Assembly: GCF_025060375.1 (NCBI RefSeq)
Contig: NZ_JANXCG010000094.1
Coordinates: 1 to 35,998 of the forward strand
Length of the DNA: 35,998 nt
Origin: Meiothermus sp.
GTDB lineage: Bacteria; Deinococcota; Deinococci; Deinococcales; Thermaceae
Reading direction: 5' to 3'
Below, piece by piece: positions 27,263 to 28,524 of the stretch. The position numbers and the translations under genes were made by a program. How positions within the stretch are numbered: the stretch's first letter is position 1; each line of letters opens with the position of its first letter. The notes beneath the pieces are model-generated. The model saw only the letters and a list, made by a program, of their open reading frames with translations. It had not been told where the DNA came from and did not search any database.

Positions 27263-27700
27263 TCAGTACCCCTGGGTGGCGCGCTGGGCGATAGGGGTGT
27301 GGGTAGAGAGGGCCACCTGGGGGGGTTCAACCTCGAGGCCTAAGTGGGCCAGAGGGGCGTTGGACTCGAGGTCGGCCGCCATGATCAGGTAGTCCAGCTC
27401 GCTCAGAGTCCAAAGGTGTACCCCTGCTGGGAGGGCAAGATCCTGCGGCGCTTCCGAAAGCAGGATCAGGATGAGCCTTTCGTTGGGGCGGGGTCCGGCC
27501 GCCAGGACGGCCCGGGCTTTTGAGAGGGAGGTGTGTGCCTCGATCCGGTAGTGTACCCCGCTTGGTGAGCGGGCCAGGATGCAGTCCTGCCCGGACGCGG
27601 GGGCGGCTACCCAGTGGGGGCAGCGGTTGAGCAGGCCGGCTACGTAGCGCAGAAGACCCTTTTGGAGGCGGCCGGGTTCGTTGGGCATACGTGCCCCCAT
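27263..27700 (-). CDS. Unknown protein next to the DnaA-box cluster
   Basis: No family recognised. The composition looks like a real soluble alpha/beta protein: VHYRIEAHTSLSKARAVLAAG, ERLILILLSEAPQDL, LWTLSELDYLIMAADLES. The pattern D-x-I-L then HYRIEAH (about residues 46-61) faintly recalls the core strands of PD-(D/E)XK nuclease folds, too weak to call. I chose ATG 27700 (MGARMPNEPGRLQKGLL, 145 residues) because GGTGGGA lies six bases upstream. ATG 27688 is a second option, and a longer GTG start at 27763 would put the start codon inside a DnaA box. Transcribed away from the cluster. Confidence 0.65.
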   Translation of the reverse strand: MGARMPNEPGRLQKGLLRYVAGLLNRCPHWVAAPASGQDCILARSPSGVHYRIEAHTSLSKARAVLAAGPRPNERLILILLSEAPQDLALPAGVHLWTLSELDYLIMAADLESNAPLAHLGLEVEPPQVALSTHTPIAQRATQGY

Positions 27701-27755
27701 GCTTTCCCACCGAGATGGGTCGGAGGTGAAAATCCCCCTCATCTTTTCTTTAGGG

Positions 27756-27824
27756 TTTTCCACAGGGGGCTGTGGATAACTCTGTGGATAACCCCAGGGC
27801 TCCTGTGGATAAGTCTGTGGGCAA
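27756..27824. other. Cluster of five DnaA-box-like sequences (candidate origin or DnaA-binding locus)
   Basis: TGTGGATAA, the perfect DnaA box, occurs at 27771-27779, 27783-27791 and 27804-27812. TGTGGGCAA (27816-27824) is a two-mismatch copy, and TTTTCCACA (27756-27764) is an inverted variant. The four same-sense copies are spaced 12, 21 and 12 bp start to start. A comparatively AT-rich, pyrimidine-rich run (27728-27760) adjoins them. The cluster lies in a 218-bp gap between an unknown gene and an acetyltransferase gene. Genes to the left are mostly on the minus strand and genes just to the right on the plus strand, as expected near an origin. No dnaA, dnaN or rep gene is in the window. Confidence 0.85.
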
Positions 27825-27918
27825 CCTGAGGGTTTCCCGGAGGTGCGGCCGGGAATTGCCCTTTGAGTAGGTGGGTTGTGGTTGGGGGGGGCGTGAAACA
27901 GTTGCGCGCCTGAGGCCC

Positions 27919-28524
27919 TTATGGTAGGGCTGCCCCATCCAGGGATTTGACCCAGAAGACCATGGGTTTGGGTGTCTCTTGTGCCTCCCCCAGGTCTTTC
28001 CAGGGGAAGTAGGCCCGCAGGTCAGGCCGCCTGGTATACCCCCGCCGGCTCCAGAACCCGTCCAGCGGAACGTAGCCTGCGGGCTTGAGGGGGTGCTCAG
28101 GGGGGCGCTCTACGGCGCAGAAGGTCACCTGGGCATAGCCCAGTTCCCGGGCCCGGGCCTCGCGCTGTCGGAAGAACTCCGCTCCCAACCCACGCCTCCG
28201 GTAGGCCGGTTCCAGCACGGACTCGCCAAAGTAGTACCAATTGCTGGGCTCGAGCCCGGCGCGCAGGAAGGGTTCTTGAAACTCAGGCTCGGCCTCAGCC
28301 AGGGGCAGCGCGGTGGAAGCGCCAACCACCCGCTCGCCATCCCGCACCAGCACCAGGGTGCCTTCCGGCAGGGAGGAAAACTTAGCCAGATAGCGCGCCT
28401 CGTACTCGAGGCTGCCCTCGTACAGGTAGGGCCACTCGCGGAAGACCAGGATGCGTAGCCGCGCCAACTCAGGGATAAAGGGCTCTATCTCAGCCCCCAC
28501 CAGCACATCCACCTGAATCCCCAT
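27919..28524 (-). CDS. GNAT-family N-acetyltransferase
   Basis: Acetyl-CoA-dependent acyltransferase, 201 residues from ATG 28524 (MGIQVDVLVGAEIEPFI). The open frame extends upstream, but that part is intergenic. The acetyl-CoA pyrophosphate loop is RRRGLGAEFF within the motif A helix region (EPAYRRRGLGAEFFRQREAR), followed by LGYAQVTFCAVERP. The N-terminal LRILVFREWPYLYEGSLEYEARYLA is shared by a distinct GNAT subgroup. Substrate unknown. TAAGCT and GGGGGCC directly before the ATG fit the leaderless pattern. It is divergent from the M23 peptidase gene and lies next to the DnaA-box cluster. Confidence 0.9.
   Translation of the reverse strand: MGIQVDVLVGAEIEPFIPELARLRILVFREWPYLYEGSLEYEARYLAKFSSLPEGTLVLVRDGERVVGASTALPLAEAEPEFQEPFLRAGLEPSNWYYFGESVLEPAYRRRGLGAEFFRQREARARELGYAQVTFCAVERPPEHPLKPAGYVPLDGFWSRRGYTRRPDLRAYFPWKDLGEAQETPKPMVFWVKSLDGAALP

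Follow-up and report, generated by a model that had tools for sequence, protein, structure and literature searches.

E. coli, Bacillus and Streptomyces are known to have sites outside oriC that titrate or control DnaA. In B. subtilis, the deletion of six DnaA-box clusters outside the origin leads to early initiation (Okumura et al. 2012, cited in PMC5295017). In E. coli, a box-rich zone near oriC titrates DnaA (PMC12371093). At the E. coli site datA, all essential boxes point in the same direction and the site lies near oriC, so that it is doubled early; the head-to-tail DnaA contacts used at datA are also used at oriC (PMC5742627). For Thermus and Meiothermus, full-text literature searches of open-access papers returned no account of DnaA boxes clustered outside oriC.

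The window analysed here is the whole 35,998-nucleotide stretch that forms one contig (C96) of a Meiothermus genome of 2.39 Mb in 96 contigs. It contains an array of four DnaA boxes, three of them perfect and the fourth degenerate, that share one orientation and fit within 54 bp (27771-27824). The start positions of the four boxes confirmed the 12-21-12 bp layout described in an earlier, sequence-only reading of this DNA (Table 1). An inverted box preceding the first box was also present as described, except that the gap was six bases rather than seven. The AT-richer run noted to the left (27728-27760) was real, at 61% AT compared to 34% for the window, but was a mere 33 bp long.

Table 1. Coordinates of the DnaA-box array and its surroundings, numbered from the first base of the window
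Feature	Sequence	Position	Strand	Remarks
Small protein, left neighbour		27263-27763	-	Found in Meiothermus only; conserved part from approximately residue 34
Inverted near-box	TTTTCCACA (TGTGGAAAA on the minus strand)	27756-27764	-	One mismatch; six bases before box 1
DnaA box 1	TGTGGATAA	27771-27779	+	Perfect; none of the nine bases differs among 17 Meiothermus species
DnaA box 2	TGTGGATAA	27783-27791	+	Perfect; 12 bp after box 1; a single substitution in one of 17 species
DnaA box 3	TGTGGATAA	27804-27812	+	Perfect; starts 21 bp from the start of box 2; unchanged in all 17 species
DnaA box 4	TGTGGGCAA	27816-27824	+	Two mismatches; 12 bp after box 3
Heptamer	GTGAAAC	27893-27899	+	Found in each of the 17 species, approximately 70 bp to the right of box 4
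GNAT acetyltransferase, right neighbour		27919-28524	-	3' end of the gene faces the array

The array is not a product of chance, as the earlier reading had held. With up to one mismatch allowed, seven DnaA-box matches were found in the window against 1.87 expected, and no shuffle reached seven. Across the whole genome there were 20 perfect boxes, compared to 5 for a reversed-pattern control, and by a first-order estimate only about 1e-8 clusters (at least three boxes within 60 bp) would be expected per genome. Eight of the 20 perfect boxes lay in oriC, three in the array and four in two inverted pairs, the rest being singletons. The array was the densest cluster after oriC, with no further dense cluster in the genome.

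By analogy with the B. subtilis clusters and datA, the array is probably a DnaA titration or regulatory cluster outside oriC that would help to limit the timing of initiation. Binding of DnaA is predicted from the perfect consensus sites, and the effect on initiation is suggested by the analogy. Like the oriC-proximal DnaA-box clusters of B. subtilis, the array is intergenic and lies outside oriC; its position in the five Meiothermus genomes in which this was measurable suggests that it may be origin-proximal as well. In B. subtilis, however, at least six clusters act together, whereas Meiothermus has one dominant, strictly spaced array. The array resembles datA in having few boxes and perhaps in lying near the origin, and all four of its conserved boxes lie on the same strand, as do the essential boxes of datA. 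In datA, by contrast, an IHF site is required between boxes that lie well apart within approximately 183 bp; the 54 bp of the Meiothermus array leave little room for an IHF loop of that type. The likeness to datA is one of layout and proposed function, with no sequence kinship implied.

To determine how widely the array occurs, the pattern TGTGGATAA-N3-TGTGGATAA-N12-TGTGGATAA-N3-TGTGG was searched with up to three mismatches. It was present exactly once per genome, at the same intergenic site outside oriC, in 17 of 18 Meiothermus species; the sole genome without it is 84% complete. The pattern was also found once in each of the 27 Thermus genomes searched, and the same genome search did not find it in the other three Thermaceae genera. 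Apart from three unrelated singletons, a scan for the exact pattern in the genome_contigs collection returned records of Meiothermus and Thermus only. In the alignment of the 17 Meiothermus loci, the invariant columns corresponded to the boxes, a few bases next to them and the GTGAAAC heptamer, while the spacer letters and flanks varied. The 12 bases separating boxes 2 and 3 differed in their letters among the 17 species but were constant in number, and the position of box 4 was occupied by a perfect TGTGGATAA in two divergent species (G001 and G017). Comparison of this intergenic region across Meiothermus, which the sequence-only reading had proposed as a check, thus found the array retained and its boxes nearly invariant. 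A lack of conservation together with dozens of similar clusters had been named as grounds for doubting a special function; the array is conserved and the dozens of clusters are absent.

The heptamer to the right of the array equals half of putative parS sites (TGTTTCACGTTTTACA) that are located 3.4-4.1 kb from oriC.

The module found in Meiothermus is the same 12-21-12 module that occurs once per genome in Thermus. At the Thermus loci examined it lies within the full dnaA-dnaN origin, whereas the Meiothermus copy is isolated at a different place and the boxes of the Meiothermus oriC are spaced differently. This resemblance to part of the Thermus oriC could mean that the array is a leftover or structural DnaA site, perhaps a piece of oriC that was transposed or an anchor, and has no part in the timing of initiation, a function that is itself proposed by analogy. 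Such a reading appears quite improbable, since the invariance of boxes and spacing throughout the genus, amid flanks and surrounding DNA that have mostly diverged, implies continuing selection.

The inverted near-box is outside the conserved core of the array, since among the other species only G007, the closest relative, had a similar copy and G017 a weaker one. This bears directly on a possible likeness to DARS1 and DARS2 of E. coli, which also have a short core with few DnaA boxes outside oriC. A DARS-like site would reactivate DnaA through exchange of ADP for ATP, and the inverted near-box standing before the tandem boxes in the window recalls boxes I and II of DARS, which face each other head-to-head (PMC5742627). 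The part conserved in the 17-species alignment is purely head-to-tail, with no head-to-head pair in the core. The identification as DARS was consequently rejected, and a DARS-like function is considered very unlikely.

The array was also compared with the ordinary origin. The oriC of the same genome was found between dnaA and dnaN (contig C51), with eight perfect boxes within 145 bp, an AT-rich stretch and TAG trios. The array shares with oriC a cluster of DnaA boxes, three perfect and one degenerate, and its spacing matches the module of the Thermus oriC, which would favour a replication origin, whether a displaced oriC or one belonging to an integrated replicon. The other features of an origin were lacking. 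The best 40-bp AT content was 52-72% at the 17 Meiothermus arrays compared to 78-88% at oriC regions, and all nine oriC regions checked had an AT-rich element. The TAG trio (DnaA-trio) was absent from all 17 arrays and present in seven of the nine oriC regions. Cumulative GC-skew was analysed around oriC in three relatives with long contigs, the genome of the window being in 96 contigs. The minimum was at 454,343 in G008, where oriC is at approximately 454,870; it was approximately 1 kb from oriC in G016 and 6.7 kb in G002. No skew minimum was seen at the array in any of the three, in which the array lies 54-139 kb from oriC. A Pfam scan of 30 proteins of the window matched no initiator (rep), partition (par) or integrase gene; a few of these proteins were without any match.

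A displaced chromosomal oriC and a second or integrated-replicon origin were both rejected on the normal dnaA-dnaN oriC, the skew in the three relatives and the lack of an AT-rich element and trios, and the 30 proteins scanned gave no rep, par or integrase match. An origin of either kind is thus extremely unlikely. The sequence-only reading had offered an oriC separated from dnaA, a second or integrated origin, and a regulatory locus like datA or DARS. Neither origin survived this comparison, the skew minimum that was to be sought at the array being at or less than 7 kb from dnaA-dnaN instead in the three relatives, and of the third proposal the datA-like or DnaA-box-cluster part is retained without the DARS part.

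An inverted DnaA-box pair with a 14-bp spacer was observed just upstream of dnaA in the same three relatives (G002, 1,310,073; G008, 456,381; G016, 3,097,422), and is likely to be an autoregulatory site.

The genes on either side were then considered as possible targets of the array. Transcription had been described as running mostly away from the site on both sides, which was incorrect: the two genes that flank the array in the window share the minus strand, the one on the left being read away from the array and the acetyltransferase gene ending toward it. Translation of the small left gene probably begins at an internal ATG around 27688-27700, because the conserved part of the protein begins only at approximately residue 34. 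Among the 61 genomes searched, homologues of this protein were found in Meiothermus only. Its AlphaFold model had a mean pLDDT of 77, and the matches in the PDB were weak and nuclease-like (best E 3e-3), giving no functional clue. MeaB, RidA, the small gene, the array and GNAT usually follow one another in this order. The window differs in having an ABC-transporter operon together with a CoA-transferase gene between RidA and the small gene.

In 12 of the 17 species the start of the small gene lies immediately to the left of the array, and its transcription leads away from the boxes. DnaA is a transcription factor elsewhere (PMC4447404). The array could therefore be a DnaA-dependent operator that switches the small gene with the cell cycle, any titration being a side effect. 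Several observations argue against this. The array was kept in two species without the small gene (G010 and G013), in one where the gene is elsewhere in the genome (G001) and in one where it is apparently split from the array by an IS (G006). The small genes that stand apart in G001 and G006 had no array within the 1.5 kb inspected, and in G001 the left neighbour of the array is convergent. The left flank, where a promoter would be expected, is also far more diverged than the array. A simple promoter operator is thus weakened by retention of the array where the gene was lost or relocated, and we regard the operator reading as rather unlikely, although regulation of the small gene by the array is possible in the species that have it.

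On the right, the array was kept where the GNAT gene is a remnant (G005) or absent (G001 and G017). As it survives the loss, movement or IS separation of the left gene and the loss of the right gene, the array looks like a free-standing cis element, independent of its neighbours. An orthologous copy was looked for beside the GNAT gene in the sister genus g2 and was not found.

As a titration or regulatory cluster, the array would be expected near the origin, as are datA and the B. subtilis clusters. In five relatives with genomes of approximately 3.2 Mb, the distance between array and oriC was 11 kb (G003), 30 kb (G013), 54 kb (G016), 116 kb (G002) and 139 kb (G008). The side on which the array lies and its orientation relative to dnaA-dnaN differed among species. 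The array travels with the MeaB-RidA-small gene-GNAT block, and in a three-genome baseline 0-23% of other genes located 50-140 kb from oriC in one genome were also within 140 kb in both other genomes. Since shared gene order partly explains it in this way, origin proximity is suggestive only. Comparable multi-box clusters of sister genera are far from oriC, at approximately 0.66 and 1.2 Mb.

For a DnaA titration or regulatory cluster, the following sequence of events is postulated. DnaA would bind the array as a short cooperative head-to-tail oligomer of approximately four protomers, the two 12-bp-spaced box pairs set 33 bp apart holding four molecules and the common direction of the boxes permitting head-to-tail contacts. 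That the same 12-21-12 module is found inside the Thermus oriC shows that this spacing belongs to the DnaA assemblies of the family. Replicated early, the array would double just after initiation, and the doubled array may take up ATP-DnaA or promote its inactivation, helping to prevent a second initiation. Against titration by numbers alone, four boxes are few. A compact, IHF-independent switch of the datA type, in which the two head-to-tail pairs would stimulate hydrolysis of DnaA-bound ATP and which the Thermaceae would have evolved from the origin module, is a tentative alternative of low probability. With its fixed spacing throughout the genus, the 54-bp array is an easily tested element. 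It could reveal whether deep-branching bacteria in general have DnaA sinks, and whether it is the spacing of the boxes that matters rather than how many there are.

DnaA boxes were also observed at several other sites. In the genome of the window, the two inverted pairs that account for four perfect boxes lie in CRISPR leaders or in copies of leaders at contig ends (C73:36632-36656, L014; C86:19962-19986, L016). Of the 30 Meiothermus leaders examined (L226-L255), 28 had a perfect inverted pair, TTATCCACA-N6/7-TGTGGATAA, at a distance of 65-66 bp upstream of the first CRISPR repeat; these counts are not independent, as the leaders are homologous. The box sequence of this pair was fixed and its spacer letters were variable. 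Leaders of two sister genera also carried the pair; none of the 27 Thermus genomes had it. Among the results of the literature search, no paper was recognised that connects CRISPR leaders with DnaA boxes. Control of CRISPR transcription or spacer uptake by DnaA is possible from these sequences. If true, DnaA, with sites both in CRISPR leaders and upstream of dnaA, would act as a small global regulator in Meiothermus.

In Thermus (L171-L175, L104), tandem boxes with 12-bp spacing adjoin the apparent 3' end of the 4.5S (SRP) RNA gene, which was recognised by eye. The distance of these boxes from oriC was about 82-94 kb in four of the genomes; in a fifth it was 284 kb. Another conserved multi-box cluster, beside trpF and/or a small gene, was seen in genus g2 (L176, L183) and genus g4 (L179, L046), far from oriC where measurable. 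Lastly, four Meiothermus genomes (L185, L186, L187, L190) carried a second conserved cluster near transporter-like genes, consisting of three perfect tandem boxes with spacings of 12 and 11 bp.
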